In this document: piece after piece, positions 40,089 through 60,868 of the stretch
How the letters are laid out: each line of letters begins with the position of its first letter
How positions within the stretch are numbered: position 1 is the first letter of the stretch
Assembly: GCF_010993735.1 (NCBI RefSeq)
Contig: NZ_WQNI01000009.1
Coordinates: 310,001-374,000, forward strand
DNA from: Chelativorans alearensis
GTDB taxonomy: Bacteria > Pseudomonadota > Alphaproteobacteria > Rhizobiales > Rhizobiaceae
Direction of reading: 5' to 3'
Length of the DNA: 64,000 bases
Made by a program: the position numbers and the translations under genes
Notes under the pieces: generated by a model
What the model saw: the letters and a program-made list of their open reading frames with translations, nothing else
Databases searched by the model: none
Told to the model about the DNA's origin: nothing

Positions 40089-41078
40089 ATGCCCGAGTTT
40101 CACATGAATAATAACAACGTATACAAAAATTTATACTTGAAGGCCGGACGCATACTGCTTCCGGTCGCGATCGTCGCTGCCGTCTTGTGCACCTTGCTTC
40201 TGACCCCTCTGGACATGGATGAGACCATCCGCGCCGTCGCGGCTGTCGATCTTCAGACGCTGTTCCTCGTGCTCGTCCTGTCGCTGGTGAACTATGCGTT
40301 CCGCTTCTGGCGCTGGACCATGTTTTTGGGCGGGCGCGACGCCCCGGTCCCTGTCGGCCGGCACCTTGCCATCTATGTCGCCGGCTTCGCGCTTACGGCC
40401 ACGCCTGGAAAAGCCGGCGAGACCATGCGCAGCCTCTACCTGCGCCCCTTCGGCATTTCCTCGAGCAAGAGCCTGGCCGCCTTCTATGCCGAACGCCTGC
40501 TCGACCTGATCGTCATCAGCGCTCTTGCAATGCTTCTCGTCACGCATTCGGACCCGGTCGTGCGGGCACTCGGGCTTATCGGCGCGGCGATCGCCACGGG
40601 CCTCCTCGCCATGCAGTATCCGAGGGTCACGGCTCTGATCGAAGGCGCAACGGCCGGTTGGTCGCCTCGTGGAGCCCGCCTCGCCACCGTCGCGGCCGGT
40701 TTCCTGCGCGATGTCCGCGCGATGATGACACCGCGCATCGCCCTTTCCGGAACGTTCCTCGGCCTTCTTGCCTGGGCAGGCGAGGGCCTCGGAACATATC
40801 TCGTGGTTCGCTCCATGGGGCTCGATCTCGACCTGTCACTGGCCATCGGAATCTACGCCACCGCGATGATCGCCGGCGTTCTGTCGTTTCTGCCGGGGGG
40901 CCTCGGCGGGACCGAAGTGGTGATGACGACGCTGTTGATCTACGCCGGCGCCTCCGCGCCGGTTGCCGTCGCCGCGACCGTCGTCGTTCGCCTCGCCACC
41001 CTATGGTTCGCCGTCGCGCTCGGACTGGGCGCGTGGCTGGGTCTCGAGGCCACCCGCGGCCTCAGAGCGCATGAATAG
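40089..41078 (+). CDS. Flippase-like integral membrane protein (LPG synthase TM/YbhN family)
   Basis: This 329-residue protein has about eight hydrophobic helices. It shows the family pattern ALTATPGKAGETMRSLYL near residue 100 and SFLPGGLGGTEVVM near residue 268, as in the transmembrane part of lysylphosphatidylglycerol synthase and AglD/YbhN proteins. Members are suspected lipid or polyprenyl-glycan flippases or their helpers. It is followed after 24 nt by the UbiA-type enzyme, so it may move the polyprenyl-phosphoryl sugar across the membrane. An ATG at 40104 is an alternative start. Confidence 0.8.
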   Translation: MPEFHMNNNNVYKNLYLKAGRILLPVAIVAAVLCTLLLTPLDMDETIRAVAAVDLQTLFLVLVLSLVNYAFRFWRWTMFLGGRDAPVPVGRHLAIYVAGFALTATPGKAGETMRSLYLRPFGISSSKSLAAFYAERLLDLIVISALAMLLVTHSDPVVRALGLIGAAIATGLLAMQYPRVTALIEGATAGWSPRGARLATVAAGFLRDVRAMMTPRIALSGTFLGLLAWAGEGLGTYLVVRSMGLDLDLSLAIGIYATAMIAGVLSFLPGGLGGTEVVMTTLLIYAGASAPVAVAATVVVRLATLWFAVALGLGAWLGLEATRGLRAHE

Positions 41079-41102
41079 AAACCTCCTCCGCGAAGGGATG
41101 CA

Positions 41103-42581
41103 GTGGTCATGACCGATCTCGACATACTCCCGAGTGCCGGACCGACCGAGCCGCCGCCGAAGGCGCCGCCGGTCCCTCTGGTTGTGGATCTCGACGGAAC
41201 GCTGATCCGAACCAACCTGCTGCTGGAGTCCGTGATTGCGCTGGTCAAGCAGTCGCTGCTGACGGTGTTTCTCTTGCCCCTGTGGCTGATGCGCGGCAAA
41301 GCGACCCTGAAGGAAGAGGTCACGCGGCGCGTCTCGCTCGACCTGTCGGTGCTGCCGCTCAACGCGCCGCTCCTTGAACATCTGAGGCGGAAAAAGGCGC
41401 GCGGCCACCGGCTGATCCTGGCGACAGGGACCCACGAAACGCTGGCGCGGAAGATCGCCGACCAACTCGGCCTCTTCGACGAAGTCCTGGCCACGAACGG
41501 TCGCCACAACCTTACGGGCATCAACAAGCTGACGGTCCTGCGCCACCAGTTCGGCGCGACCGGCTTCGACTATGCCGGAAACGCGGCGGCCGACTGCCCG
41601 ATCTGGTGCGCGGCCCGTCAGGCAACCGTCGTCGACGCGCCGTCCCGCCTTGTCGGCTGGGCGAAGCGAAATGCCAATGTCACACACGTGTTTCCGCGCC
41701 AGAGGCCGCCGCTCTGGCTCTACGTGCGCGCCCTTCGCCTCCACCAATGGCTCAAGAACATTCTTCTGTTCGCGCCGTTGGTCGCCGCGCTGAAGTTCAC
41801 CGATGTCGCCGCCCTGACAGACCTTTTGATCGGCTTCTTCGCCTTCGGCTTGTGCGCTTCCAGCGTCTATCTCGTCAACGATATCATCGACCTGGAGGAC
41901 GACCGCCTCCATCCCAACAAGCGGCACCGTCCGTTTGCCTCTGGCACGCTGCCGGTCGCCCACGGGCTGGTCCTGGTCCCGCTTCTTTTGGCCGCCTCGG
42001 CGGCCCTGTGTCTCTTCCTGCCCTGGCAATTCGCCGCCGTCCTCGGCGTCTACTACGCCGCGACGCTCGCATACACCTTCGGCCTCAAGCGCCTGGAGGC
42101 CATCGACATCGTGACGCTGGCGCTGCTCTATACGACGCGGATATTCGCCGGCGCCGCCGCTGCCCAACTGCCGCTCTCGGTATGGCTCCTCACCTTCTCG
42201 ATCTTCCTGTTCTTGAGCCTGGCGATCGCCAAGCGGTACGCTGAACTCATATTGATGCACAAGAACGGTAAGCAGGGGAGCACAGGGCGCGGATACCGGT
42301 TCGCCGATCTGCCGATACTGCGCAGCATGGGCGTCGGCGCGGGCTATGTCGCAGCCGTCGTCCTCGCGGTCTATCTGGACACACCGCAGGTCGCCGCCGC
42401 CTACGCGCATCCGCAGATCCTGTGGGTTTTCGTGCCCGTCCTCGTCCTGTGGCTGACGCGGGTGTGGATCAAGACAGGCCGCGCCGAGATGCATGACGAC
42501 CCGCTGGTCTTCGCCGCGCGGGACCGTGTCAGCCTCGCCTTCGCCGTCCTGTGCGGCGCCGTCATCGGGATGGCGCTGTGA
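41103..42581 (+). CDS. HAD-UbiA fusion: decaprenyl-phosphate phosphoribosyltransferase-like
   Basis: This is a 492-residue two-domain protein. Residues 25-215 are a HAD phosphatase domain (DLDGTL at 29-34, ILATGTHE, DYAGNAAADCPIW). Residues 220-492 are a UbiA prenyltransferase with about eight helices and the Asp-rich site NDIIDLEDDRLHPNKRHRP from residue 259. UbiA proteins followed by DprE1/DprE2 homologues are 5-phosphoribosyl-1-diphosphate:polyprenyl-phosphate transferases. The HAD domain could remove the 5-phosphate. This is step one and perhaps two of polyprenyl-phosphoryl-arabinose synthesis. The start is GTG 41103 or ATG 41109. Its stop overlaps the next start. Confidence 0.85.
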   Translation: MVMTDLDILPSAGPTEPPPKAPPVPLVVDLDGTLIRTNLLLESVIALVKQSLLTVFLLPLWLMRGKATLKEEVTRRVSLDLSVLPLNAPLLEHLRRKKARGHRLILATGTHETLARKIADQLGLFDEVLATNGRHNLTGINKLTVLRHQFGATGFDYAGNAAADCPIWCAARQATVVDAPSRLVGWAKRNANVTHVFPRQRPPLWLYVRALRLHQWLKNILLFAPLVAALKFTDVAALTDLLIGFFAFGLCASSVYLVNDIIDLEDDRLHPNKRHRPFASGTLPVAHGLVLVPLLLAASAALCLFLPWQFAAVLGVYYAATLAYTFGLKRLEAIDIVTLALLYTTRIFAGAAAAQLPLSVWLLTFSIFLFLSLAIAKRYAELILMHKNGKQGSTGRGYRFADLPILRSMGVGAGYVAAVVLAVYLDTPQVAAAYAHPQILWVFVPVLVLWLTRVWIKTGRAEMHDDPLVFAARDRVSLAFAVLCGAVIGMAL

Positions 42582-43888
42582 CAAGCGCCAACGCAGCGTA
42601 CCGCTCCTGGGGGCGGCCGCAGTCGGAGGCGGGCAAGCGGGTCGTCCGGCTGTGGTGGCGCGACCAGGCTTTTCCCGCCGACCGCCCCGCCCTGCCCTTC
42701 GGCAACGGGCGCAGCTATGGCGACAGTTGCCTTGCCCGCGAGGGAGCGCTCATAGACCTGCGCGGTCTCGATCGCTTCATCTCGTTCGACGACGACACGG
42801 GGCTCCTGCGGTGCGAGGGGGGTGTTCTTCTGTCGGACATCCTCGCCCACTTCGTCCCCAAAGGCTGGTTCCTGCCGGTGACGCCGGGTACGCGGTTCGT
42901 AACGCTCGGCGGCGCGATCGCCAACGACGTGCACGGCAAGAACCATCATCGGGCCGGCAGTTTCGGCCATCACGTGCGGTGCTTCGAGCTTCTGCGCTCC
43001 GACGGCGCGCGGATCGTCTGCTCCCCCCACGAAAGCGCCGACTGGTTCGCCGCCACCATCGGCGGCTGCGGCCTGACCGGCGTCATCCTATGGGCCGAGA
43101 TCGCCCTGCAACGGGTGCCGGGACCGGCCATGGAGGTCGATACCCTGCGCTTTTCAGGCGTAGACGAGTTCCTCGAAATAAGCCACGCCTCGCACAACTC
43201 GCACGAATATACGGTGGCGTGGATCGACGCCCTCAACCCCGGGCGAGACGGGGCGCGCGGGCTCTTCTTCCGCAGCAATTTCGCCGCCGACCAGCGCCCC
43301 GTCGCAGCCCCCCGGCCGAAGCCGGGGCTGCCGTTCACCCCACCCGTCTCGCTGCTGCCCAAGCCGGCGGTCCGGCTCTTCAACACGGCCACCCGCCGCT
43401 GGCCGCGCCGGTCCCGGCAATATGTCCACTACGAGCGGTCCTTCTATCCGCTCGACGCCGTGCCGAACTGGAACCGCCTGTTCGGCCGCCGGGGCTTCTA
43501 TCAGTATCAGTGCGTCGTTCCCTACAGCGCGGCCGAGGCGATCGGCGAACTCATCGCGCGCGTTGCGCGTGCGGGCGAGGGATCGTTCCTCTCGGTGCTG
43601 AAGGTCTTCGGCGATCACAAACCGGTCGGCTGGCTGTCCTTCCCCCGCCCGGGCCTGACGCTCGCTCTCGACTTTCCCGATCGCGGCGAGCGGACGCTGA
43701 AGCTGCTCGACACGCTCGACGAGATCACCGCGGAAGCGGGCGGCGCGGTCTATCCCGCCAAGGATGCGCGGATGGACGCGCAAACCTTCCAGCGCGGCTT
43801 CCCGTCCTGGCGGCGGCTCGAAGACTACCGCGACCCGGCCATCTGCTCGGATTTCTGGCGCCGCGTCGCCATTCCGCAACCAACCTAG
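42578..43888 (+). CDS. DprE1-like FAD oxidase (polyprenyl-phosphoryl-ribose 2'-oxidase)
   Basis: This is a 436-residue VAO-type flavoprotein from GTG 42578, overlapping the upstream stop as GTGA. FAD-binding landmarks are GNGRSYGDSCL (42-52), PVTPGTRFVTLGGAIANDVH (100-119) and KNHHRAGSFGHH. These follow the mycobacterial DprE1 pattern closely. The C-terminal domain has SFLSVLKVFG and YPAKDARM. DprE1 oxidises the ribose C2' of the lipid-linked sugar to a keto intermediate. The stop codon TAG is the first TAG of a family A repeat. The closest rhizobial precedent is the Nod-factor arabinosylation gene set of Azorhizobium. Confidence 0.88.
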   Translation: MTSANAAYRSWGRPQSEAGKRVVRLWWRDQAFPADRPALPFGNGRSYGDSCLAREGALIDLRGLDRFISFDDDTGLLRCEGGVLLSDILAHFVPKGWFLPVTPGTRFVTLGGAIANDVHGKNHHRAGSFGHHVRCFELLRSDGARIVCSPHESADWFAATIGGCGLTGVILWAEIALQRVPGPAMEVDTLRFSGVDEFLEISHASHNSHEYTVAWIDALNPGRDGARGLFFRSNFAADQRPVAAPRPKPGLPFTPPVSLLPKPAVRLFNTATRRWPRRSRQYVHYERSFYPLDAVPNWNRLFGRRGFYQYQCVVPYSAAEAIGELIARVARAGEGSFLSVLKVFGDHKPVGWLSFPRPGLTLALDFPDRGERTLKLLDTLDEITAEAGGAVYPAKDARMDAQTFQRGFPSWRRLEDYRDPAICSDFWRRVAIPQPT

Positions 43889-43990
43889 AGCAATTCCAGG
43901 AAAAGTGGAAACCGGTTTTCCGTCCGGAATTGCGACAAAACAAGGAGTTAGACCAGTTCATCGATTCCATGAAACGATGAACTGGTCTAG
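43885..43990 (+). repeat. 106-bp palindromic intergenic repeat, family A copy 2
   Basis: This begins CTAGAGCAATTCCAGG and ends ACTGGTCTAG. It fills the whole gap between the dprE1-like stop and the first possible start of the dprE2-like gene. The 3' half forms a near-perfect hairpin: GACCAGTTCATCG (43951-43963), an 11-nt loop, and CGATGAACTGGTC (43975-43987). The 5' half has nested repeats GCAATTCC/GGAATTGC and GGAAAA/TTTTCC. About 84 percent identity to copy 1 by hand count. Confidence 0.9.
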
Positions 43991-44739
43991 TGAGTGACGT
44001 GATGCGCAAAGTCCTGATCATCGGTGCCACCTCGGCCATCGCCGCCGCCATCGCCCGTCTCTTCGCACAGGACGGCGACCGCGTGTTCCTCATCGCCCGC
44101 AACGAGGAGCACCTGAAGGCGACGGCAGACGATCTCACTGTCCGGGGCGCCAGCGTCGCGGGATATAAGAGCCTCGACGTCAACGCGCTCGACCGGCACA
44201 AGGCGGTTCTGGACGAGGCGGAGGAGGCGCTGGGCGGCATCGACATCGCGCTCATCGCCCACGGCACCCTGCCAGTCCAGGCGGACTGCGAGCGCTCGCC
44301 GGGCCTCACCGCCCAGGAGCTGCAGACGAACGCGGTGAGCACCATCGCCCTCCTCACCCGTCTTGCCGAGCGGATGGAAGAAAGGCGCAGCGGCAGGATC
44401 GCCGTCATCACCTCCGTCGCGGCCGACCGCGGCCGGCAGAGCAACTATGTCTACGGGGCGGCAAAGGCAGCCGTCGACACCTTCCTCGAGGGCCTGCGGC
44501 AGCGGCTCCACAAATCCGGCGTCGGCGTGACCGCCATCAGACCCGGCTTCATCGACACGCCGATGACCGCCGGGTTCCGGAAGGGGCTTTTATGGGCCAA
44601 GCCCGAGGCGGCCGCCAAGCGCATTCATGCTGCGATCGGCAAGGGCACGGACGTCGTCTACGTGCCGTTCTTCTGGCGGTGGATCATGCTGGTGATCCGC
44701 CTCATGCCGCGCAGCCTCTTCAAACGCATCGAGCTTTAG
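43990..44739 (+). CDS. DprE2-like short-chain reductase (polyprenyl-phosphoryl-2-keto-ribose reductase)
   Basis: This is an SDR of 245 (ATG 44002) to 249 (GTG 43990) residues. The nucleotide site is LIIGATSAIAAAIARLFA, and the catalytic part is ITSVAADRGRQSNYVYGAAK with the Tyr-xxx-Lys pair. The C-terminus ends in a hydrophobic, arginine-flanked helix (FFWRWIMLVIRLMPRSLFKR), as expected for a membrane-attached DprE2. With DprE1 it would epimerise lipid-linked ribose to D-arabinofuranose. The GTG start would overlap the end of the repeat; the ATG is the more typical N-terminus. Confidence 0.87.
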   Translation: MSDVMRKVLIIGATSAIAAAIARLFAQDGDRVFLIARNEEHLKATADDLTVRGASVAGYKSLDVNALDRHKAVLDEAEEALGGIDIALIAHGTLPVQADCERSPGLTAQELQTNAVSTIALLTRLAERMEERRSGRIAVITSVAADRGRQSNYVYGAAKAAVDTFLEGLRQRLHKSGVGVTAIRPGFIDTPMTAGFRKGLLWAKPEAAAKRIHAAIGKGTDVVYVPFFWRWIMLVIRLMPRSLFKRIEL

Positions 44740-44752
44740 CTAGCTGCCAGCT

Positions 44753-47266
44753 TCACCGCCGCCGAGCCGCGGCCGGCTGCGCAAGCTTGTAGCGGAAGCC
44801 CTGCTCGAAATAGTCCGGCCCGATCCTTTGGGCACCGTTGACGATGGGGATGAGGTGCTGCCGGTCCCCGCGCCGGATCGGGTTCACATAGCTCCACACC
44901 ACGTCCCCCTGCCGCGTCACCTCCAGGAGCCGCCCGCCGTCGGATTCGGTGATCAGCGTGTTACCGTTCGGCAGCCGCTCCGCGTTCGAGCGCAAGTAAC
45001 TATAGAGGGGGTGGTCGGACGTGCCGCCGAAGCTCCATACGATGTTGGAGGTTTGCGGGTCGATCTCGATGATACGCGAACTGTTGCCGCGTTCCAGGCC
45101 GCCCAGATTGTCGAACATCAGTATGTTGCCGTTCGGCAGTATGCTCGGGTCGTGCTGGCGCAGCCAGGCTCCCGTCTTCGCCCACTTTATCTCACCGGTC
45201 TCTATGGAAACGACGGCGATCAGCGACTGCTCCCTGATCGAGACAAGCAGGTCGCCCTCCTCGCCGAACGGGAAATTCCGCGCCGCCTCCGCGTCGATAT
45301 ACTTGACATTGTTCGGGTGCAGCGGGTCACCGAGGGTGGAATAGGGCAGGAACCGGAGGAGCCCGCCATATTGCGATTTCAGCAGCGCTTCCGTCAGCGA
45401 TATCCTCTTCAGTTCCTTTCCCTCAGGCGAGAGCTCGACGATGAAATCCTCAAGGTACGGGCGGTCGAACTGCCTCGCCCCGGGCGGCTGCTCCTCGCGG
45501 AATTGGTGGACGAGCGTGTAGATGCGGCCGTCCGGCGCGATCGCCATCTCGTGATGTACATTTTCGAGATAGCTCCAGATAACGCGGGAATCGCGGTCCA
45601 TCTTGACCATCCCATAGCCCCACGGCGTATCGGCGGAGGAAATATAGATCGCCAGCAGATCGCCGTTCGGGAAGACCTTGGCGCGGTCCATGTAGATGAC
45701 GGAGCCGGGCTGCGGGTCGGCGACCGCAGCTCCCTCCTCCCAAACCCTCTTGTATGGCAGCCGCCACTCGTGCACGACCCGCCCATCCATGGCGATGAGG
45801 CGGGCAACCTGGTCATCGCCCGACGTGAACAGCGTATAGCCCGGAAAAGCGCGGGCCGGATCGTTGACCGTGACACCGCGCTCGTCCGTCCTCGCGCGCT
45901 CGTAAAGGTTGGTCAGGATGGGATTGCTGAGGATCCGTTGCTGGACCCGCAGCGCGTCCCAGGCCCGATAAGCGTCGCTGAAAAACTGGTGCGGGAAGAC
46001 CCGCGCCTGCATCACCATCGCGCCTCCCACGAAGGCGAGAAACATCAGCATGAGCACGAAAACCATCGTCCCGCCTCTTTCCGCGACGCTTTGCCCCCCT
46101 CCTCCCGGAGCGCTGGCGGCGTTGATGCTCACCGCCCTTGGCCTGGGCGGCGATGTGACGGCGGAGCCGCGGTGGCTGGCATTCCAGGCGGTGATCGCCT
46201 GAACCGCCGCAAGCCATATGATCGGCATGATCTCGACAACCACGCGCTGCTCGGCCAAACGGCCGAAATACACGGCCAAGGCCAGAAACGGCAGCCCGAA
46301 CCAGATCAGCGTCCGCCCCAGGACAGGCGACAGATAGCGGTGCAACAGCAGCACCGGCAGATAAAGCCCGGCGCCGAACCGCGCGAAATAGGTCACGAGG
46401 TAAAGCGGGCTGGCAAACAGCGCGAGGTTGTGCACGAGGTGGTTTTCATATTCCGATCCCGCAACGTTGGCATGCGGATTGTCGATGTTCGGGATAAGCC
46501 ACACCGCCGCGCCGTAGACCGCGGCGAAGACGACGATCTGCGCCGCCAGCGTCTTCAACAGCACCCCGCGGTCGACGCGGTCGTAGCAGACGGCGAGGAA
46601 CGCCGGGATCATGCACACCGTCGTCTCGCGGTTCAGCGTGGCGACGGCGAACAGCCCGAGATAGGCAGCGAAACGGCGCATATCCGGGCGCTTGTGGAAG
46701 CGCGCGAGCAAAACCACGAGCGCGAGCGTGAAAACGGCGGCCGGCAGATCGTACACGTAGCGGAAGAGCCTGACCGTTCTCCACTCGCCCAATTCCAGAA
46801 GCCCGCCGTCCTGTTGGAACGTCGAGGCGAACCTCAGGTCCGGCACGATCAGATGCATCGCAACCGGAATGACGACCGTTATAGCCAGGATCCGGCGCAC
46901 CGGCGGTGAGACATCGGGACAAAAAAAGTCCAAGCCGCGCAGCGCGACGACGACCAGCAGAATCCAGGCGACCACCTCGATGGCGGCAAAGACGAGATCG
47001 GCATCGAGCCATGGAACGCCCTCGCTGATCCCCGCTACGATAAGCGGCAACAGCGTCCGATACTGAAACGGCGCCGCGGCGTTGAAATCGGCCATGCGCC
47101 AAGGGCTGGCGAGCCACCATGGCAATGCCGCGACATAGTGAAACGTCGTCAGAAGAACGGCGATCCACAGGAGCGCGAGGAGCCACACCGCGCGCCAGAC
47201 ATACTCCCGCTGAACGGTCGGCACAGTCTCCCGCACCCCTACCGCCGATGATGGGACAGCTTCCAC
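44753..47266 (-). CDS. Polytopic membrane protein fused to an arylsulfotransferase-like domain
   Basis: This is an 837-residue protein from GTG 47266. Residues about 25-390 hold some nine to ten hydrophobic helices with loops reminiscent of GT-C glycosyltransferases (ADFNAAAPFQYRTLLP in the first outer loop). A further helix lies at about 405-430. Residues 450-830 are an ASST-like propeller (MVKMDRDSRVIWSY, LPNGNILMFDNLGG, NTLITESDGGRLLEV), closely similar to the protein at 15138-16526. It converges with the dprE2-like gene, 13 nt apart. It could transfer a sugar or sulfate to the exported glycan; neither activity is demonstrated. Confidence 0.75.
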   Translation of the reverse strand: MEAVPSSAVGVRETVPTVQREYVWRAVWLLALLWIAVLLTTFHYVAALPWWLASPWRMADFNAAAPFQYRTLLPLIVAGISEGVPWLDADLVFAAIEVVAWILLVVVALRGLDFFCPDVSPPVRRILAITVVIPVAMHLIVPDLRFASTFQQDGGLLELGEWRTVRLFRYVYDLPAAVFTLALVVLLARFHKRPDMRRFAAYLGLFAVATLNRETTVCMIPAFLAVCYDRVDRGVLLKTLAAQIVVFAAVYGAAVWLIPNIDNPHANVAGSEYENHLVHNLALFASPLYLVTYFARFGAGLYLPVLLLHRYLSPVLGRTLIWFGLPFLALAVYFGRLAEQRVVVEIMPIIWLAAVQAITAWNASHRGSAVTSPPRPRAVSINAASAPGGGGQSVAERGGTMVFVLMLMFLAFVGGAMVMQARVFPHQFFSDAYRAWDALRVQQRILSNPILTNLYERARTDERGVTVNDPARAFPGYTLFTSGDDQVARLIAMDGRVVHEWRLPYKRVWEEGAAVADPQPGSVIYMDRAKVFPNGDLLAIYISSADTPWGYGMVKMDRDSRVIWSYLENVHHEMAIAPDGRIYTLVHQFREEQPPGARQFDRPYLEDFIVELSPEGKELKRISLTEALLKSQYGGLLRFLPYSTLGDPLHPNNVKYIDAEAARNFPFGEEGDLLVSIREQSLIAVVSIETGEIKWAKTGAWLRQHDPSILPNGNILMFDNLGGLERGNSSRIIEIDPQTSNIVWSFGGTSDHPLYSYLRSNAERLPNGNTLITESDGGRLLEVTRQGDVVWSYVNPIRRGDRQHLIPIVNGAQRIGPDYFEQGFRYKLAQPAAARRR

Positions 47267-47583
47267 GAGCGCCTCCGCAGCCGTCTTGCTTCGCCCCCCG
47301 ATCGCCTTGGCGGCGCCGGGCGCTACACCTGACCATGGTTCACTAGCCGGCTGGCTCGAACGAGCTACCGGCGGAACGGCAACGGCAGGACGGCGAAGAG
47401 AGTTCCATCATATGGGATTAACGGGTGCAACATGGGGTGGGAGTCAGGAGCGCCGAGCCCGTCGCGCCCCCACCAGCGGCCGTCATCCCGGCCCCACCCG
47501 CGCGCGGGTGGGGATGACACTTTTGGAGGAACCGTGCACCCCTACACCGGTTCAAGGCGTGACCTCGGATAAGCCAACGCCCG
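47267..47583. other. 317-nt intergenic region with a family B repeat
   Basis: The region lies between the start of the membrane/ASST fusion and the end of the DUF4185 gene. It contains the palindrome listed at 47482-47518 and otherwise no recognised gene. The part near 47267-47400 should hold the promoter of the fusion gene. Confidence 0.5.
47482..47518. repeat. GTCATCCC palindrome, family B copy 1
   Basis: Outer arms GTCATCCC and GGGATGAC enclose a perfect 22-bp palindrome (47492-47513) made of CCCCACCCGCG and its complement. GTCATCCC-armed palindromes are common intergenic elements in rhizobia. A related element lies at 49013-49058, on the other side of the DUF4185 gene. Confidence 0.75.
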
Positions 47584-48765
47584 CTACCCGTCTTCGGAAG
47601 GCGCCTCGGGAACGGCGGCGACTGCCGGGGCCGGCCACTCCAGCCTCGTGCGCATGAGGAAGACGTTGTACGGCGTCCATTGCGACATCGTGTAATAGAG
47701 CTCGGTATCGATGTCGCTGCCCGGCACGATATAAGGCGCGTAAAGACCGGGATAGTCCTGCGCGCCGACGACGACCTGCGCATCGCCCCACGGGCCGGTC
47801 AGGTCGGGGGCGAGCCGCAGGACGACGGCGCGGCGCTCCGGGTCGAAATACATCATGACCCAGCTTTCGTGCGTCTTGCTCCACGCAACCGACAGTTCTC
47901 CGGCAGGTGCCGGCACGATCATACTGGCAGCAGTGGGATCGGCGGCCCACCCGCTTCCGGTCCAGTACTCGTAGGCGTCCAGGTCCAGTATCCGCTCGGC
48001 TGCGACACGGCGCAGCTTCACGCCGCCGAACCGCCCCTCCGGAATGCCGAAGGTATAAAGCACGTCCTCGTCACGCACGACGGCGACCTGCTCGAACCCG
48101 ATCGCCCGGTCCTCCACGGCTTCGGGCGGGACCACCCAGGTGTGCCCGTCGTCGTCGGAATAGGCGATACCGGAATGGCGGACCTCCCACTGTCCCGGCG
48201 CGCCCCATCCCTTGACCGACATGTAGTGAAGATACATGCGGCCGCCGATGGAAACGCCATAGGTCGGGATCACGGTCTTCTCCACGCCGCCGATCTTGCG
48301 CGAATAGAGCAGTTCCTTCGCCGCGCCGTTCGCGCCGGTGATCATGGTCTCTATCGGCAGGCCGTTGCGCGGGTCGGGGTCGGCGATGCGCGCAATCGTG
48401 TTGCTGCGCCAATTCATCCGGCCGAACATCCCCCTCTGGCCGAACGTATCGCCGAAGACCATGTACATCGCGCCCTCGTGCAGGAACATATGCCCGAGGT
48501 CCGTGCCATGGACATCCCACCGGCGCGCGGTATCGTTCGTCCCGTCGGGGCCGGTGACCTGGTTCACGACCTCGCTTCCGGCGATACGCACCGTCACCGG
48601 CGATATGGCGGTCTCATCGCCCGCCATATCGCCCGGCTGCAATGAAGCATCCTGAATTTCCCGGGTTTCCATGGCAGGTATTTCGGTCGGGGGACCGGCT
48701 GAGGCAACAGAGGAAAGCGCAAAAAGCGCGCTGCAAAGAAGGGTCGCCGACCAATTGCGCGACAT
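47584..48765 (-). CDS. Secreted DUF4185-family protein, candidate endo-D-arabinanase (GH183-like)
   Basis: This is a 393-residue exported protein from ATG 48765 (ribosome site GGGAGT) with signal MSRNWSATLLCSALFALSSV and cleavage near ASAG. The body is a five-bladed-propeller-like DUF4185 domain: VHGTDLGHMFLHEGAMYMVF, GDTFG, WRSNTIARIADPDP, and AYSDDDGHTWVVPP. Mycobacterial DUF4185 proteins were recently shown to be endo-D-arabinanases (family GH183) acting through two aspartates about 18 residues apart. Here D89 (GTDLG) and D106 (FGDTF) are 17 apart. Placed beside D-arabinose precursor genes, it is a good candidate for trimming a D-arabinan. Substrate is inference. Confidence 0.8.
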   Translation of the reverse strand: MSRNWSATLLCSALFALSSVASAGPPTEIPAMETREIQDASLQPGDMAGDETAISPVTVRIAGSEVVNQVTGPDGTNDTARRWDVHGTDLGHMFLHEGAMYMVFGDTFGQRGMFGRMNWRSNTIARIADPDPRNGLPIETMITGANGAAKELLYSRKIGGVEKTVIPTYGVSIGGRMYLHYMSVKGWGAPGQWEVRHSGIAYSDDDGHTWVVPPEAVEDRAIGFEQVAVVRDEDVLYTFGIPEGRFGGVKLRRVAAERILDLDAYEYWTGSGWAADPTAASMIVPAPAGELSVAWSKTHESWVMMYFDPERRAVVLRLAPDLTGPWGDAQVVVGAQDYPGLYAPYIVPGSDIDTELYYTMSQWTPYNVFLMRTRLEWPAPAVAAVPEAPSEDG

Positions 48766-49012
48766 CCGTGACTCCCGACATACGCCAAGAGCCCCGCCGC
48801 CTTCGGACACACGTCCGCGCGCGATCACAAGTCGGTTGGGGGCCCCCGCCCGGTTGAAGAATGATCAACGCCCTTATAGTGGATTTTTACATCACATACA
48901 ATTAATGTCGGAAACAAATTTGTCGTTATATCAATTTTTCCCTTCCTTATTAATATGTTACATCATCAAACCTTCACGAACGGGTATGGATCCTTGAAAC
49001 CCACCCACCACG

Positions 49013-49491: not shown

Positions 49492-50406
49492 TGCTTCGAT
49501 GAGTGGCCGTTAAGAAGCGCTTGCAGTTGATCACGCTGTGCGGCATGTTTTTCCTGGTTATCGACCTTGAGTTTATTCAGGTTGATGAGCTTCCATTTGG
49601 CCGCCGGAAGATCTGTAGCCTGCGGGCGGTCGATCGCATCGAAATCCGGTGCCCCGTCATGCAGGCTTAGCAGGAATTTCTTCGCACTCTCATCGAAACG
49701 TGACTGGATATCGGCGATCAGATGGTTCTGCGAGTCTGGCAGGTTGCCTCGTCATTCCCTCGAATTCCTGCGCATAGGGCTGATCGAGCGCAATCAGATT
49801 CGGGTTTAGCAGTTCATGCGCCGGGCGCGGCGAACAGGCGATATAGATCAGGAATGTGCGGAACAGGTCTTCTGTCAGCCCTTCATTCTCATAGAGCAGT
49901 TTGACGTCGAACAGGTCGCGCGGGTGCTGGCGGTCCACTGCCGCATGCAGCTTGCCGCCGAACAAATCCTCGAACGAAACGACCTGGATTTCCGCATACC
50001 CGAATTCATCCTCGGCGGTCGGGCAGACCGGCAGGGTTTGCGGGTCGTGAACAACGCCGCGCATGACAGGCGAAGTTTCGATCTTAATCTCCGCATCGTC
50101 GAGTCGTGCAAGCAAACGGGTCGCGCCACCGTCGCCACCGGCGATGCGTTGCGCTGTTGCTCCTGTAATGCCGCCTTCTATGGCGGAGGCGATCCGGTTC
50201 ATCGCCTCATTGATTTCAGCAAGGCTTTCGGCGCGGTCTTTGACCGGCAGATATGTCAGGTCGATATCCACAGACAGGCGCGGCATGTCGCGGTAGAATA
50301 GGTTGATTGCCGTTCCACCCTTGAGCGCGAATATCTCTTCCATTGCCACATGCGGCAGAATGCGCACGAGCAGGGCGACCTGTGCGGCATACTTGTCATG
50401 CGCCAT
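49492..50406 (-). pseudogene. abiEii: AbiEii-type nucleotidyltransferase toxin, frameshifted in its C-terminal third
   Basis: This is the toxin of a type IV AbiE system: LKGGTAINLFYRDMPRLSVD and IDLTYLP mark the nucleotidyltransferase site. The intact frame from 50406 ends prematurely at 49690. In a neighbouring frame the expected C-terminus continues from about 49745 (NLPDSQNHLIADIQSRFDES, then FLLSLHDGAPDFDAID and LPAAKWKLINLNKL) to a TAG at 49492. The join needs a one-base change around 49743-49756. A whole gene would encode about 304 residues, the normal size. The start overlaps the antitoxin end by 11 nt. Confidence 0.85.
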
Positions 50407-51220
50407 CGCCTGCCCCCTCTGTGGTTACGAATTCTTCCGGCACCATGATGCGATAGCGGGGATGTATTCTGCCGCCCTTGACCAGTGCGCGGTCGCCGCT
50501 GCCAAGGTCGAACGCTTGCGGGTCGAGACGTTTGCGCCAAGCATAGTTGTGGCGATCGGCAAAGACGAAAAACAGCCGCCTGACCTTGATCGTCTTGCAA
50601 CTCTCCAGCAGGGCGGTCAGCAGGCGCGGGCGCAACGTTGTCAGGCTCTGGAACACCATATCGAGATTGTGGAAACTCTCTTGGTCTGGCAGTTCATCCA
50701 GCGCCTCCAGCACGGCGCGTTCGGGCGAGGACATGCTCAGTTGCCATTCCCAGGGCAACGTGTCCTCGGCGCTGGTATCGTCTTTCGACAAGCCAACCTC
50801 TGGATCGGAAAACAGGGAGGTGCTGCGCGTTACGAGTGGCGCGTTCAGCGGCAGCTTTGTCAGCCAGTTCGGGATATCCTGCCCGTAGAGCCAGACCGGC
50901 GGGTTGCCTCCCAGGGGCAGGTAATGCCTGTAGCCGTGCAGATCGAGAGCAGTCATGCCGCCGACATGGACGCCATAGCCCATAATGTGCTGGACAGAGA
51001 GCAGGCATGTCTTCCAGTCGATCGTACCGGTCCTGGCGGCGGTGGGCACAGGGCGGCGGAACACGCCGCGCGCGAGCCGTTCCAGCCAGCCGCGTTTGAC
51101 GTAGTCGCGAAAGGTCTCGTAGGCAAAGCCATGCGAAGTAAGCCATGCGGCATCGACCAAATATCCCGCAGGTACCGCTTCAAGGACTTTCTTCAGCTTT
51201 TGCGATCTTTCAGCACTCAT
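50396..51220 (-). CDS. abiEi: AbiEi-type antitoxin/transcriptional repressor
   Basis: This is an intact 274-residue protein. The N-terminal winged helix (SQKLKKVLEAVPAGYLVDAA, WLTSHGFAYETFRDYVKRGW, LERLARGVFRR) is followed by the AbiEi C-terminal domain (SPERAVLEALDELPD, VRRLFFVFADRHNYAW). AbiEi represses the operon by binding inverted repeats and counters the toxin without binding it. Here the antitoxin is whole while the toxin is broken, a common state after toxin inactivation. Confidence 0.88.
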   Translation of the reverse strand: MSAERSQKLKKVLEAVPAGYLVDAAWLTSHGFAYETFRDYVKRGWLERLARGVFRRPVPTAARTGTIDWKTCLLSVQHIMGYGVHVGGMTALDLHGYRHYLPLGGNPPVWLYGQDIPNWLTKLPLNAPLVTRSTSLFSDPEVGLSKDDTSAEDTLPWEWQLSMSSPERAVLEALDELPDQESFHNLDMVFQSLTTLRPRLLTALLESCKTIKVRRLFFVFADRHNYAWRKRLDPQAFDLGSGDRALVKGGRIHPRYRIMVPEEFVTTEGAGDGA

Positions 51221-51636: not shown

Positions 51637-52059
51637 TCATTCCGTTTCCGAGACCGTAACGCCCGGCACGTTTTCGACCGTCTGCTTCAGATCATTGAGC
51701 AGTTTATCCACCGAACCCGAAGGGACCGGATGGTCGCTATTTGGATAGAAAGCAAAATCGAATTTCTCTGGTTTCCATACGCTGTTGCCCAGAACCTTTA
51801 AGCCCTCACGATACATTTGTACGCCAATGTACTCGCCATCCGGTGTTGTTGGAGCAATCCGGATGGCAAAACCGTGGGTGTCAGCGAACTGCCTAAGCTG
51901 AGCAAAAAACCGCTCGCGTGCCATCGGTGGCACAGCGATGACCACCGAACGGAGCGGTTTCTGTGCCGGGCTCAATTCTGGCGTCACAGCATGTCCCTCT
52001 ACCGCACCAGCAACCACTATATACAACATCCCATATAGCATCGCCCGACGTCGCATCAT
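51637..52059 (-). CDS. Secreted protein of unknown function
   Basis: This is a 140-residue protein with an N-terminal signal sequence (RAMLYGMLYIVVAGAVEGHA). It shows RSVVIAVPPMARERFFAQLR, FAIRIAPTTPDGEYIGVQMY and FDFAFYPNSDHPVPSG. The Tyr/Phe-rich alpha-beta pattern suggests a small periplasmic fold. I do not recognise a named family. It sits alone between the abiE region and the glycosyltransferase gene on the same strand. Confidence 0.7.
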   Translation of the reverse strand: MMRRRAMLYGMLYIVVAGAVEGHAVTPELSPAQKPLRSVVIAVPPMARERFFAQLRQFADTHGFAIRIAPTTPDGEYIGVQMYREGLKVLGNSVWKPEKFDFAFYPNSDHPVPSGSVDKLLNDLKQTVENVPGVTVSETE

Positions 52060-52284: not shown

Positions 52285-53958
52285 TCAGCGATGCTGCCCT
52301 ATAGTCGGTGCCGATACCTTGAACGTTGCACCTCCCGGCGGCGGCTCCGAATCGCTTTGGCAAACGAAGGCGTAGGCCGGCCATCGCCTTTCCTGCAAGG
52401 GCACCTCGCGGGTCGTGCACTTCAGTTCGGGCCGTTCGTGCTCGACCCATTGCACGAACTGGAAGCCGTCGGTCGGCACGACGACGCCGCCAACCTCGGC
52501 CAGGTGCTTGACTTCCGGCACCGCCCGCCACCAGACGCGGTAGGAGGGCGAACGCGGGAGTTCGCCCGACAGTTCGTAATAGAGCGCCGCCATGCGCAGT
52601 CCGTAGGGCATGACGAACAAAGGATGCTCGACCGGCGCATCGGCGACCATCTGCCGGATCGTCGGCTTCAAACCGTCGAAAAGGGGTTCGCGGTCCTGCA
52701 GCAGCGTTGCCACGTGCTCCCCCCGCACGATCCCGACGACCAGCAGCAATGTCGCCACCGCGTCGCGAAAAACCGGACGGCGCGCGAGCCACCAGGCCGA
52801 CGTCGCCACGACGGCGACGAGAAGCGGCCCAAGAACCGGGAGATGGAAGGCACGGATGTCGTAGGCGCCGTACCACAGCATGAAGGGCGTGAAGGAAAGT
52901 GCCGCACCGTAAACGAGTGCCAGGCCCCGCCAGGCAGCATCGCGACGCCTGCAGCCGGCGAGGAAAAGCGCGATGCCGACGACGATCAGCGGCGCCGAGA
53001 CCCACGGATGGGCGGAGCGAAGCGTAAAGACCAGGTCTTCCAGCGTTCGCGTCGAATCGAGACCAGACCCGTAGAGATCGGCGAAATAGGTGCCGCGGAT
53101 ATATTCGACCAGTTCCATGGGCGGCGGCGGCAGCGGCATATATTCCGAATAGGCCGTGTGCGGGCTATAGGCGGTGTAGGCGAGATAGAGGTACTGACTG
53201 GCCCCAAGCAGTATGAAGAAGGCAATCGCGGCCATCGGGCGAGGGCGCAGGATCAGGCGGAAGTGCAGGACCGTCAGCCAGATGAAGACCGGCAACAGCA
53301 TGATCATCATCAGGTGGTTGCCGAAGGAGGCCGCATAGACCGCACATGCAGCGACGAAGAAGCCGATCCTGCGGCTTTCCACGAAAAGAAGAAGCAGGAA
53401 GACGGTCGTCAGGATGAAGGCGAGCGCGAGCGGGTAGACTTCCGCTTCCGTCGCCTGGATGGCCATCAGGCTGGATGTGCCGAGCAGCAGCGCTGCGGCG
53501 ACGGCGGTGCGGATATGGCGCGTCAGGTGATAGACGATCAGGAGAGCGACGGCATTGGCAATTGCCGCCGGGACTACGGCAAGCGCGAAGGTCATCGTCC
53601 ACCACGGCGGCAGCGGCAATCCGAGCGCGCGCACCCCTGCCCCGAGCATAAGCACGAATGGATATCCCGGCCCGTGCAGCATGATCGGCGTGTGGCCGAG
53701 GATCTGGATTTTCGTCGAATCCCCGGCGTTCAACTCCCCGCCCAACCCGGGAAACATGCACCAGCCGTAATAGACGAGCGAGGCCAGGAAAACGGCCACC
53801 GCGGCCGCTACTGCGCGCCGCCAGCCTTCCCGGTCCCCGGATTGCCGGCCGCCCGTCAAGAGCCAGCGAAGCAGCCGTGGCATTGCTCCAGGCGGACCCG
53901 CCGCTATCGCGGCGCCCTGCCGGTCCATTCCGCTACCGATTTCCTTCGCCAGCTGCAT
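52285..53958 (-). CDS. GT-C type membrane glycosyltransferase, DUF2723-like
   Basis: This is a 557-residue protein with about eleven hydrophobic helices. The first outer loop carries GGELNAGDSTKIQILGHT and then PGYPFVLMLGAGVRAL, the acidic-loop arrangement of DUF2723/GT-C enzymes that use polyprenyl-linked sugars. The C-terminal 150 residues form a soluble outer domain. Its ATG overlaps the stop of the AsmA-like gene (TGATG), so the two are co-translated. A link to the D-arabinose cluster 4 kb away is possible but unproven. Confidence 0.78.
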   Translation of the reverse strand: MQLAKEIGSGMDRQGAAIAAGPPGAMPRLLRWLLTGGRQSGDREGWRRAVAAAVAVFLASLVYYGWCMFPGLGGELNAGDSTKIQILGHTPIMLHGPGYPFVLMLGAGVRALGLPLPPWWTMTFALAVVPAAIANAVALLIVYHLTRHIRTAVAAALLLGTSSLMAIQATEAEVYPLALAFILTTVFLLLLFVESRRIGFFVAACAVYAASFGNHLMMIMLLPVFIWLTVLHFRLILRPRPMAAIAFFILLGASQYLYLAYTAYSPHTAYSEYMPLPPPPMELVEYIRGTYFADLYGSGLDSTRTLEDLVFTLRSAHPWVSAPLIVVGIALFLAGCRRRDAAWRGLALVYGAALSFTPFMLWYGAYDIRAFHLPVLGPLLVAVVATSAWWLARRPVFRDAVATLLLVVGIVRGEHVATLLQDREPLFDGLKPTIRQMVADAPVEHPLFVMPYGLRMAALYYELSGELPRSPSYRVWWRAVPEVKHLAEVGGVVVPTDGFQFVQWVEHERPELKCTTREVPLQERRWPAYAFVCQSDSEPPPGGATFKVSAPTIGQHR

Positions 53959-55808
53959 CAGTCGGTACCCGGTTTTTCCGTCGCAATGATATCGTCCGCC
54001 GAGAGCGAGGCGGAACGCGTGCCGATGCGCGGGATGCCCGGTGCGATCATCGGCTCGCGCATCGTGCCGCCCACACCGAAGGGAAGTTCGACGAGCGGTA
54101 TTTGCAGACGAGCCGGGGCATCGGCGGCATGGAGGGAGGCGGTGCCCTCCGCCTCGACCTCACCGTCGGCAAGCTTTCCGCGGCCCGACAGGCTGATCTC
54201 GAAACGGTCGCCCTCGAAGCGGACCCGCGGCACATGAACGACGCCGCCCCGCACGTCGGCAGAGGCAATGAGGGTCGAGAACGATGTCCGTCCGGCAGCG
54301 GGAATAAAGGGCTTGCCGGTGCCAAGGTTCACGGCGCCGGATGCCAGCCGCTGCAGCGTCGCCACGATGTCGGCACCGTCGAGGCTTCCGTCGCGGACGA
54401 CGGCGACGCCCCAGCCGTCGAGCGAGGCTATAATGGCGCCGAGCGTCTTCCCCCGCCCCGTGAGCTCGGTTGCCGCCGTGACGATGCCCTCGGGCGGATG
54501 GTCCTGGCCGATGGGCAGGCTGATGGTCTCCGGCCAAAGCGCCCGGCCGATATCGCTCACCGATACGCCGTCGACGCGGCTGGCAAAACGCACGGATGCG
54601 CCCGCTGCCTCCGGTGTGACGAGCAGCGTTCCCTGCACACTTCCGCCCGCCACTTCCGCCTCCTCCAAGGCCACGCTTATCCGCCCCGCGCGGTTGCGGA
54701 ATCTCACGGTGGGACTTGCGACGCTGAACAGCCCGAAATTACTCGCCGGAGCCCCGGCAGCAAGGTCGATATCGATACCCCGCAGTTGGTGGGGCACGGC
54801 GGGGAGCCTCAGCAACTCGGCCAGTTTCTCCGGAAGGAGCGCTTTCAGATAGGAGCCGAGTTCGAGTTCATCGACCTCGAGCGCGCCGGTGAGCCGTGGT
54901 CTTTCGCCTCTCCATCCGAAGGCGAGACTGCCCGATGCCGACATTCCGGGCAGTTCGAAAGTCGCATCTTCCAGCGTCACGGCATCGCCGCCGGCCGCCT
55001 TGAATATGCCGGCGATGCTGAGCGGGCCGATAGCGTGGTCCGGCTCAAGCAGTGTGATCGCCCGCCTCGGCCGATGAGTCCCCGACCAAAGATCCAGGAA
55101 ATCGAGTGCACCCGCCGACAGCACCGCCGGCCTTGCGGCGATCCTCAGATGGCCCTGGCTTCCCTTTGTGAGAATGCTTTGCGGGTCATCGAGGCTGGCG
55201 CTAATATCGATCCGTCGACGGCGCCACTCCAGCGAGCCGGTAAGCTCGACGAGCTGCCCGCTTCCCCCCCGCGCAAACTTCATGTTGACGCCGGTAATCT
55301 CTTCCGTCCGCCCGGTACCGCCATCTTCCAACCGGATGGCCCCGTTCCGCAGGACGACTTCGCCGATGCCGCCATCCCCGGCATTGGCGAACAGGGGATG
55401 CTGTGCATAGCCCGCCAACTTGGACAACAGCTGCCGCGGCTCTTCGCCGTTCGCGTTCCAGTTCAGGTGGATTCGTGCGTCATCCAATGTCAAGCTGCGA
55501 GGCTCGATCCGCCCACCCAGCAGCGGGAGAACCCGAAGCGACGCGCTAAGAGATGTAATCGTGAAGCGCGGCCGGTCGTCGGGACGACCGTTTTCCCTTA
55601 TCTCCACGTCCTCCATGGTGACGGTGGGAAACGGCAGCACAGCGATGGTCGTATTGCCGCGAATGCGGATATTCTCACCGGTCGAGGCGTGGATAAGGCT
55701 GGCAATCCGCCCTTCGGCAAAATTCGCCGAGGCATGCGGAAGTATAGCTACGAGTGCTGCCGCTGCGACAGCGGCTATTGCCAGCACAATGTAAATCGAC
55801 GTTCTCAT
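53958..55808 (-). CDS. AsmA-family protein
   Basis: This is a 616-residue protein with an N-terminal membrane helix (MRTSIYIVLAIAAVAAAALV) and the AsmA-type opening region FPTVTMEDVEI. A long beta-rich body follows, with repeated SLTLDDARIHLNW-like segments and a C-terminal AsmA_2-like part (IPLVELPFGVGGTMREP). AsmA-like proteins form bridges for lipid traffic across the envelope. A start at 55835 would add nine residues. It is transcribed ahead of the GT-C gene. Confidence 0.8.
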   Translation of the reverse strand: MRTSIYIVLAIAAVAAAALVAILPHASANFAEGRIASLIHASTGENIRIRGNTTIAVLPFPTVTMEDVEIRENGRPDDRPRFTITSLSASLRVLPLLGGRIEPRSLTLDDARIHLNWNANGEEPRQLLSKLAGYAQHPLFANAGDGGIGEVVLRNGAIRLEDGGTGRTEEITGVNMKFARGGSGQLVELTGSLEWRRRRIDISASLDDPQSILTKGSQGHLRIAARPAVLSAGALDFLDLWSGTHRPRRAITLLEPDHAIGPLSIAGIFKAAGGDAVTLEDATFELPGMSASGSLAFGWRGERPRLTGALEVDELELGSYLKALLPEKLAELLRLPAVPHQLRGIDIDLAAGAPASNFGLFSVASPTVRFRNRAGRISVALEEAEVAGGSVQGTLLVTPEAAGASVRFASRVDGVSVSDIGRALWPETISLPIGQDHPPEGIVTAATELTGRGKTLGAIIASLDGWGVAVVRDGSLDGADIVATLQRLASGAVNLGTGKPFIPAAGRTSFSTLIASADVRGGVVHVPRVRFEGDRFEISLSGRGKLADGEVEAEGTASLHAADAPARLQIPLVELPFGVGGTMREPMIAPGIPRIGTRSASLSADDIIATEKPGTD

Positions 55809-55942
55809 GGCAGCATTTCTGTTGCCCCGCCACATGACCAATCTAGCGCGCCGAAGCGAGCAAAAATAGGGTTGGCCGCCATGATGTTGAAAAGTCACGA
55901 CAAGCCGCCCCGGGGGCAGCCTGGAGGCGAAAACGTTCTATC

Positions 55943-57232: not shown

Positions 57233-57726
57233 CGTGCGGCCGCGGAGGAGGCACGGAAGAAGCCGTCCTCCCTAAGCGCGGCGCGCACCTTGATGAGGGT
57301 GGTGAGGAGCAGCAGCATGCCGCCTGCGACGAGGCTCGCCGTCACCCATGAATAGCTGACGCTCGGGATGCCCTGGAAGGCGCGCGCCCGGCTGACCCAG
57401 GAAAGCCACGTGCCTGCATAAATGACATAGACGAGGAAGGCCGAGATGACCGTGTAGTTCACATAGGTGAGCGCGCGCGCGGCTTTCGCCGGCAGCCGCG
57501 CCGTCAGAACGTCGATCGACATGAGCGCATTGCGCCGCCAGGCGATGTCGGCGCACAGAAATGCACCCCAGGCGAAGAACGACGTGGAAAGATCGATGGT
57601 CCAGTTGAGGGGGTGGCCCAGCATGCGCGCCACCCCGCCGGTGAAGATCAAGACCACCATGAGGAGCAGAAACATCCCGGCAAGGACCGCCTCGAGCCTT
57701 TGCAGGAAAGCATATATGGCTGCCAT
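57229..57726 (-). CDS. TRAP transporter small permease (DctQ type)
   Basis: This 165-residue protein has four predicted helices and the DctQ-type opening LQRLEAVLAGMFLLLMVVLI then FTGGVARMLGHPLNWTIDLS. It lies 43 nt downstream of the binding-protein gene and overlaps the large subunit gene. Confidence 0.9.
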   Translation of the reverse strand: MAAIYAFLQRLEAVLAGMFLLLMVVLIFTGGVARMLGHPLNWTIDLSTSFFAWGAFLCADIAWRRNALMSIDVLTARLPAKAARALTYVNYTVISAFLVYVIYAGTWLSWVSRARAFQGIPSVSYSWVTASLVAGGMLLLLTTLIKVRAALREDGFFRASSAAAR

Positions 57727-57769
57727 GGGCTATCCTTCGCCGGACCCTTTTCGCCCTCCGCGGGCGGCA

Positions 57770-58762: not shown

Positions 58763-58889
58763 CTCTTCTCCTCCTTACGCGAGTACGTTCACTCCATCGG
58801 CCGGCGAAACGGCGGAACGCCAAGCTTCGCCGGCAGGCAAACAGAAACCCGTATGCATGAACCACGGCGCATCCCCCAGACGCCGTGGC

Positions 58890-60724: not shown

Positions 60725-60763
60725 CGCCTGCAACCTCCTCCCGGGCCGCGATTGCTTCACCTG

Positions 60764-60791
60764 TTGTCAAAAAACGTCTAATGTCTACACT
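60764..60791 (+). promoter_or_regulatory. Probable promoter of the tandem-domain GntR gene
   Basis: TTGTCA (60764-60769) and TACACT (60786-60791) are separated by 16 nt, upstream of the GTG at 60869 and inside the divergent region shared with the SDR operon. The match is moderate. The regulator probably binds in this AT-rich patch. Confidence 0.4.
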
Positions 60792-60868
60792 ATACGAAAT
60801 GCGAGCCTTGGACAAGCCGTTTCGGGTTGGCCCATCTCATCGTCAAATGCAGCAGGAGGGGAAAGGAA

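Follow-up and report, generated by a model that had tools for sequence, protein, structure and literature searches.

We analysed a stretch of 64,000 nucleotides from contig NZ_WQNI01000009.1 of Chelativorans alearensis, hereafter the window, which carries a cluster of genes predicted to act on glycans containing D-arabinofuranose (D-Araf). Coordinates are window positions unless a locus label (L followed by a number) is given; G numbers denote genomes. Products were scanned against Pfam and NCBI profiles and compared with solved structures, and gene neighbourhoods were examined by tblastn. The cluster is composed of two modules that face each other: the donor synthesis genes on the forward strand (40089-44739), and genes for an AsmA-like protein, a GT-C glycosyltransferase, a DUF4185 protein and an ASST fusion on the reverse strand (55898-44753). 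An initial annotation of this DNA had described six of these genes, all of which are present at the positions it gave or a few bases off, but it had overlooked the GT-C (52285-53958) and AsmA-like (53958-55898) genes, which by the gene order conserved in relatives are part of the locus.

The donor module opens with a flippase-like membrane protein of the LPG_synthase_TM/TIGR00374 type (40089-41078, +; PF03706 1.5e-42, TIGR00374 98 bits), a candidate exporter of the lipid-linked sugar. It is followed by a fusion (41103-42581, +) of a HAD domain, the presumed 5-phosphoribose phosphatase (PRP), and a UbiA domain, the presumed polyprenyl-phosphate phosphoribosyltransferase (PPPRS). This protein scored 628 bits against the NCBI profile NF006088, whose cut-off is 351, and its best solved match was the mycobacterial DPPRS (8j8j, 3.4e-32). 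Its DxDGT motif at residue 29 (D29) and its NDxxDxxxD motif at 259 (N259, D260, D263, D267) are the equivalents of D18 and N247/D248/D251/D255 of the Citrobacter ORF15 protein, in which these residues were probed by mutation (PMC11127046). By its motifs, the fusion is thus predicted to be an ORF15-type PPPRS with a PRP domain.

The third gene encodes a DprE1-like flavin adenine dinucleotide (FAD)-dependent 2-oxidoreductase (42578-43888, +). Its open reading frame (ORF) opens at 42551, and the candidate GTG start at 42578 overlaps the TGA stop of the HAD-UbiA gene. The closest solved relatives of the product are DprE1 enzymes (4aut, 2.6e-67), and the HGKNHH and AKD lysine motifs are retained. 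The fourth product (43990-44739, +) is a DprE2-like reductase of the short-chain dehydrogenase/reductase (SDR) family, with the YxxxK motif at residue 155, a best solved match to DprE2 (21gq_C, 8.1e-31) and 316 bits against NF005489, above the cut-off of that profile. The four genes probably form one transcript, since they share a strand and are closely spaced, with a 24-base gap, a 4-base overlap provided that the DprE1-like gene starts at the GTG at 42578, and a 101-base gap. Taken together, the synthesis of lipid-linked D-Araf by these enzymes is well supported as a prediction from their sequences. In the alignment of the DprE1-like protein with DprE1 of M. smegmatis, an alanine occupies the position of the cysteine that we take to be the benzothiazinone target; covalent inhibition of this enzyme by benzothiazinones would therefore not be expected.

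The facing module encodes a secreted DUF4185 protein (47584-48765, -; PF13810 3e-101, 339 bits against a cut-off of 39.5). Its ORF spans 47584-48828 on the reverse strand and 414 aa; residue 22, the ATG at 48765, is preferable as a start to the GTG that opens the ORF, and the signal peptide obtained with this start, read by eye, ends near ORF residue 44. The best solved match was EndoMA1, an endo-alpha-D-arabinanase of glycoside hydrolase family 183 (GH183; 8hhv, 1.9e-70). EndoMA1 is described as having D33 as its nucleophile, D51 as its acid/base, E243 as a catalytically essential residue and R198 as a pivotal one, with W138, P141, L292 and Y293 contacting the substrate (PMC10509167). All eight residues are retained in the window protein (alignment read by eye), at positions 110, 127, 311, 266, 208, 211, 362 and 363, respectively. 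Moreover, when 18 alphaproteobacterial proteins from two DUF4185 groups were aligned, D110, D127, R266, E311 and Y363 showed no variation. Because the active-site residues are kept, a GH183-type specificity for D-arabinan is a well-supported assignment for this protein. The catalytic domain is shared with EndoMA1 and with DgGH4185 and Rv3707c (PMC10115798). Mycobacteria carry GH183 enzymes too (PMC10115798). The window protein is nonetheless shorter, its 414-aa ORF comparing with a 488-residue chain in EndoMA1 and leaving no room for the C-terminal carbohydrate-binding module of that enzyme. The family identities proposed by the initial annotation were thus recovered in the best solved matches, namely DPPRS, DprE1, DprE2 and EndoMA1.

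The neighbourhood of this hydrolase was surveyed in a genome collection, in which each of 84,980 species is represented once, by querying it with an alignment of two DUF4185 sequences; the two peptide patterns of the survey limit its finds to the DUF4185 group of the window. Neighbours were counted by tblastn (E<=1e-6) in stretches of up to 10 kb on each side, where the contig allowed, which represents less than 1% of a genome of 3 to 6 Mb. The survey yielded 23 loci, 20 from Rhodobacterales, two from Chelativorans and one from Mesorhizobium. UbiA was a neighbour in 18 of them, DprE1 in 17 and DprE2 in 15, while the GT-C and AsmA genes were each found in 20 and ASST in 19. The flippase is more variable: LPG_TM occurs in three loci (the two of Chelativorans and that of Mesorhizobium), and a GtrA-type protein, present in 14/23, replaces it in many of the Rhodobacterales.

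One of these loci is borne on a plasmid of Tateyamaria omphalii (NZ_CP019313.1, L022), where UbiA-GtrA-DprE1-DprE2-hypothetical lie on one strand and AsmA-DUF2723-DUF4185-hypothetical-sulfotransferase-ASST, checked with Pfam, on the divergent one. The modules are convergent in the window and divergent in Tateyamaria, yet the inner order AsmA-GT-C-GH183-ASST is unchanged. By Blast, conservation between the two loci is highest for GT-C and GH183, with 57% identity each, against 38 to 42% for the donor genes (UbiA 38%, DprE1 42%, DprE2 38%); ASST and AsmA are 29% identical. Beside the Tateyamaria locus (L022:8507-11746) are a gene annotated as a glucan biosynthesis protein and one for a hypothetical protein of 531 aa, which matches no Pfam family, recurs in 14 of the 23 loci and could be an additional transferase.

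A second DUF4185 group, which shares 27-28% identity with the window protein in the alignment, was retrieved by hidden Markov model searches of genomes and from a plasmid collection. It comprises L024 and L025, which are from one genus, together with L026 and L031. UbiA, DprE1 and DprE2 adjoin the DUF4185 gene in all four of these loci, and in L031 a GT87 transferase does so as well. By contrast, UbiA, DprE1 and DprE2 were all absent from the 20-kb surroundings of five weak DUF4185 hits (L027-L030, L083), a count that leaves out G120, G344, G425 and G598; two of the five genomes, G289 and G1041, had a DprE1 match elsewhere. Strong DUF4185 hits, defined as those over 100 bits, were found in 3/199 genomes of the family, 1/385 of the class and 2/397 of the order, the genome of the window being included in each count. 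In the family of G977 the figure was 2/228, and G977 itself had been chosen for having the gene and is not an independent find. Four genomes with strong hits were new (G102, G174, G850, G1106), three of them with DprE1 within 10 kb.

The donor half is ordinary among Alphaproteobacteria, with DprE1 (E<=1e-45) in 54 of 385 genomes of the class, and GH183 is a rare addition that recurs beside the donor genes. Co-occurrence at the level of genomes is in itself weak evidence in the family of G977, because 82 of its 228 genomes have DprE1 at the same threshold; the argument rests on adjacency. A random association of DUF4185 with the donor genes, an outcome that the initial annotation had named as refuting its proposal, is rejected on the neighbour counts in two groups (the six loci of the first group that lack DprE1 nearby having it at another place in their genomes), on the weak hits and on the scarcity of strong ones. 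The 27-28% identity between the two alphaproteobacterial groups, against 44.8% between the window protein and one from Nocardia, suggests that GH183 was recruited twice independently, a question that the long-branched tree does not settle.

Based on these findings, we postulate that the locus makes and processes a D-Araf-containing cell-surface glycan, a reading to which we assign a probability of about 0.7. That the donor genes and GH183 act on one and the same glycan is supported by the linkage of their genes. In the proposed scheme, the fused HAD domain would take off the 5-phosphate, and the DprE1-like and DprE2-like enzymes would invert C2 to give polyprenyl-phosphoryl-D-arabinofuranose, which the LPG_TM protein would flip to the periplasm. 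There, the TMEM260-like GT-C would attach D-Araf to an acceptor or polymerise it, possibly aided by the membrane half of the fusion acting as another transferase, while the ASST domain would add or exchange sulfuryl groups and AsmA would help the product outwards. Finally, the secreted GH183 would cut alpha-D-arabinofuranosidic bonds of the same glycan. Polymer length, acceptor, sulfation and export direction are elements of this scheme that we infer.

Hydrolases within polysaccharide-synthesis operons of Gram-negative bacteria are familiar, examples being BcsZ, AlgL, PslG and PelA. By analogy, the GH183 enzyme may control chain length, release the product, or clear stalled chains so that they can be recycled. 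The initial annotation had proposed that the locus both builds and trims its product, and had held a builder with its own breaker to be worthy of attention. The former proposal is supported by homology, active-site residues and linkage, although its donor half is common and already described in Gram-negatives; of the latter, the combination of D-arabinan with GH183 stands as the novel part, builder-plus-breaker as such being familiar.

The same hydrolase could instead serve in scavenging or predation, attacking the D-arabinan of neighbouring actinobacteria and lying beside the donor genes by accident. GH183 enzymes have been reported from a predator and from lysis cassettes of actinophages (PMC10115798), the window protein matches the endolysin family phrog_28089, its closest non-alphaproteobacterial relative in the plasmid collection is a Nocardia protein (44.8% identity), and a TRAP-type uptake cluster adjoins the locus in the window. 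However, an accidental position agrees poorly with how closely and how often GH183 genes of both groups are linked to genes for D-Araf synthesis. In addition, the exo-enzyme GH172 (DUF2961, PF11175) was found in 0/11 genomes, a search in which the controls gave no match either, and C. salis lacks the TRAP cluster in the corresponding position; the search did not extend to further genes of import or catabolism. We consider this explanation improbable.

The transfer step is assigned to the protein encoded at 52285-53958 (-), whose family match is TMEM260/DUF2723-like (PF11028 8.5e-6). It has nine hydrophobic segments, and its D80 is invariant in 21 sequences. An AlphaFold2 model built from 21 sequences matched oligosaccharyltransferase, ArnT, DPY19 and AftA in Foldseek, and EmbA more weakly, which places the protein among those with a predicted GT-C fold and makes it a candidate D-arabinofuranosyltransferase. 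Adjoining it is the gene of the AsmA-like membrane-anchored protein (53958-55898, -; PF05170 1.1e-15), a possible factor for transport from the inner to the outer membrane.

With one confident GT-C in the window, the product may be smaller than a polymer. In a narrower form of our reading, and one not exclusive with all of it, the locus would add only one or a few D-Araf residues as side chains to a polysaccharide, pilin or lipid, with GH183 acting in quality control or turnover and no arabinan polymer being made. The Gram-negative pentofuranose systems published so far are described as adding side chains (PMC11127046), and some GH183 enzymes are reported to cut short alpha-1,5-D-Araf oligosaccharides, those of Pseudomonas pilin (PMC10115798). 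On the other hand, the GH183 enzymes described are endo-acting on D-arabinan (PMC10115798, PMC10509167), so that at least short chains would be expected, and GH183 is conserved together with the GT-C in 20/23 loci. We regard decoration alone as possible, short of likely.

The co-conservation of GH183 with the GT-C would also be compatible with a role of the former as a transglycosylase, joining pre-made D-Araf chains to the acceptor, rather than as a hydrolase. GH183 enzymes are anomer-retaining and have been reported to transglycosylate methanol (PMC10115798, PMC10509167). The characterised members are nevertheless described as hydrolases in the same papers, and no feature in the sequence of the window protein singles out transglycosylation, so we give this alternative little credence.

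Between GH183 and the donor genes lies a fusion protein (44753-47266, -) that joins a multi-pass membrane domain (approximately residues 1-407, possibly a GT-C) to an ASST propeller-type sulfotransferase domain (PF14269 5.5e-31 at residues 534-795). The single-sequence search of the fusion against solved structures gave no match. Its model is reliable in the C-terminal half only, and this ASST half matched Cpz4 best (9kf4, 4.5e-16), as did a profile comparison. Cpz4 is reviewed as a sulfotransferase independent of 3'-phosphoadenosine-5'-phosphosulfate (PAPS) that favours the sugar hydroxyl of glycosides (PMC13426309). The window domain shares the propeller fold, the QHD motif and the conserved histidines (His436 type) with Cpz4/ASST-type enzymes, H571, H572, H650 and H705 being nearly invariant, which points to membership of the ASST sulfotransferases; unlike Cpz4, it is fused to a membrane domain. 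Since the domain resembles Cpz4 and a separate sulfotransferase gene is found in 17/23 loci (PF13469 in Tateyamaria), a sulfated product is plausible, although inferred.

Taken by itself, the membrane half of the fusion matches no Pfam family, and the plasmid collection yielded no homologues of it. In Mesorhizobium (L034) its counterpart is a separate gene (56% identity) whose product has a weak PMT_2 match (0.003, under the cut-off). The membrane and ASST halves of this strain, Mesorhizobium sp. ORS 3428, are split (L034:8277-9488 and L034:13679-15196). Split in one genome and fused in another, the two halves constitute a Rosetta-stone case linking a putative GT-C to a sulfotransferase.

Several observations weigh against the D-Araf glycan proposed here. 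Enzyme activities, sugar and linkage are all predicted from genes. The DprE1-like product scored 343 bits against NF053785, under the 500-bit cut-off (reached by 0/385 genomes of the class), and the DprE2-like product 187 bits against NF053786, under the 250-bit cut-off, hence the label '-like' for both. The GT-C model is of middling confidence (pTM 0.75, mean pLDDT 70) and weakest, below 50, at residues 71-97, which contain the conserved D80; moreover, a GT-C fold does not reveal the sugar donor or the linkage, and the membrane half of the fusion lacks a confident model. DprE1 is not within 10 kb in six of the 23 loci (L035, L040, L048, L050, L052, L053), some stretches ending at contig ends, and is found elsewhere in all six genomes, on the same contig in L035 (about 11 kb off) and in L048 (about 30 kb off). 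It is also missing beside GH183 in G1106 (L075), where UbiA, GtrA, GH183, GT-C, AsmA and ASST are kept, DprE2 is a remnant only and DprE1 lies on another contig. Three loci have no GT-C nearby. In Paracoccus alkanivorans (L052) it adjoins UbiA-DprE1-DprE2 on another contig (L080) and in C. xinjiangense (L032) it stands with AsmA at the end of a different contig (L102), while the Mesorhizobium locus (L034) has no GT-C of the window type within 10 kb.

The profile scores also leave room for an oxidoreductase pair that makes another polyprenyl-linked pentofuranose, with a correspondingly different specificity of the DUF4185 protein, and specificity does drift within the SDR and FAD oxidase families. 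Yet the best solved matches of the pair are DprE1 and DprE2 themselves, and the companion hydrolase points independently to D-arabinofuranose. A donor other than D-Araf is accordingly a slim prospect in our view.

By gene content, the window locus holds the full set of a three-component pentofuranose system, namely a PPPRS, a putative flippase and a GT-C. Gram-negative systems described to date consist of PPPRS/PRP, plus DprE1/E2 homologues for arabinofuranose (PMC11127046). The window resembles the Citrobacter youngae O1/O2 systems of that paper in the fusion of HAD-PRP and UbiA PPPRS domains and their order, in the NDxxDxxxD motif, and in having a flippase and a GT-C (PMC11127046). The flippase candidate differs, being LPG_TM (PF03706) in the window and GtrA in many Rhodobacterales where Citrobacter uses a MATE protein (PMC11127046). 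The Citrobacter transferase is a GT136 enzyme (PMC11127046), and the window GT-C has a TMEM260-like family match. The window further adds GH183, ASST and AsmA genes to the three components. Compared with the mycobacterial decaprenyl-phosphoryl-arabinose (DPA) pathway (Rv3806c, Rv3807c, DprE1, DprE2, Emb/Aft), the UbiA, DprE1 and DprE2 chemistry is alike by homology, while the HAD domain takes the place of the unrelated phosphatase Rv3807c (PMC11127046) and the GT-C resembles AftA and EmbA in fold only. Also unlike that pathway, the hydrolase gene is inside the biosynthetic locus, in a Gram-negative; its neighbours are genes for synthesis rather than those of a catabolic polysaccharide utilization locus. 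Within Alphaproteobacteria, the noeCHOP/noeCNHOP genes for Nod-factor arabinosylation (Azorhizobium; Rhizobium sp. IRBG74, PMC5080398) represent D-Araf donor synthesis by homologues of the same pathway. As described, this noe system is set apart from the window by the hydrolase, GT-C and ASST genes of the latter.

Gram-negative donor synthesis is therefore already published, and the new part is the pairing of D-Araf donor synthesis with GH183: judged by titles and abstract openings, none of the open-access papers listed by our searches describes a Gram-negative in which GH183 adjoins genes for D-Araf synthesis. D-arabinan counts as a hallmark of mycobacteria and related bacteria. If our reading is true, the compact cassette, carried by some marine, saline and soil alphaproteobacteria, would allow D-arabinan assembly and trimming to be studied with simple genetics. 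It would also point to one natural function of GH183 beyond Actinomycetota, and would provide research on D-Araf glycans with new candidate transferases and hydrolases. The frequency of DprE1-like genes in the class hints at such glycans in many alphaproteobacteria, and a poorly charted surface sugar becomes directly testable. In a bolder version, the cassette of these alphaproteobacteria would spread horizontally and assemble a genuine, sulfated D-arabinan on the cell surface, processed by a dedicated GH183, with the Chelativorans fusion of GT-C and PAPS-independent sulfotransferase coupling polymerisation to sulfation; we hold this to be rather unlikely.

Some signs of mobility are present. 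The locus of one relative, Tateyamaria, is plasmid-borne, and the membrane domain of the fusion is found in 3 of 16 genomes of the genus Chelativorans, that of the window included. A clean empty insertion site was not recovered: G963 is without the membrane domain, but its flanks were not syntenic in the two stretches fetched. In C. salis the cassette extends from the flippase to AsmA and is flanked by SCO1/PCuAC genes on one side and by an S41 peptidase gene on the other. In the genome of C. xinjiangense, whose DUF4185 protein is 93% identical to that of the window, GH183 and GT-C are on two different contigs.

The interval between GH183 and GT-C is about 3.3 kb in the window, where it holds an AbiE-type pair, against about 0.6 kb in C. 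salis. The pair consists of an AbiEii-type toxin (49690-50406, -; PF08843 3.8e-43) and its partner, an AbiEi-type antitoxin/regulator (50396-51220, -; PF11459 6.8e-41, PF17194 1e-22), and between it and the GT-C gene lies a small ORF (51637-52059, -) with no Pfam match up to E 0.1. Neither the toxin nor the small ORF was found in the stretches of the 23 surveyed loci, and the AbiE-type pair is not thought to be part of the pathway. Beyond the AsmA-like gene, genes for a TRAP transporter (DctP/DctQ/DctM), Ldh_2, SDR and GntR proteins occupy 55943-61918, between AsmA and the S41 peptidase. This cluster, missing from the corresponding place in C. salis, is present in the genome of C. xinjiangense, as checked for DctM, SDR and GntR.

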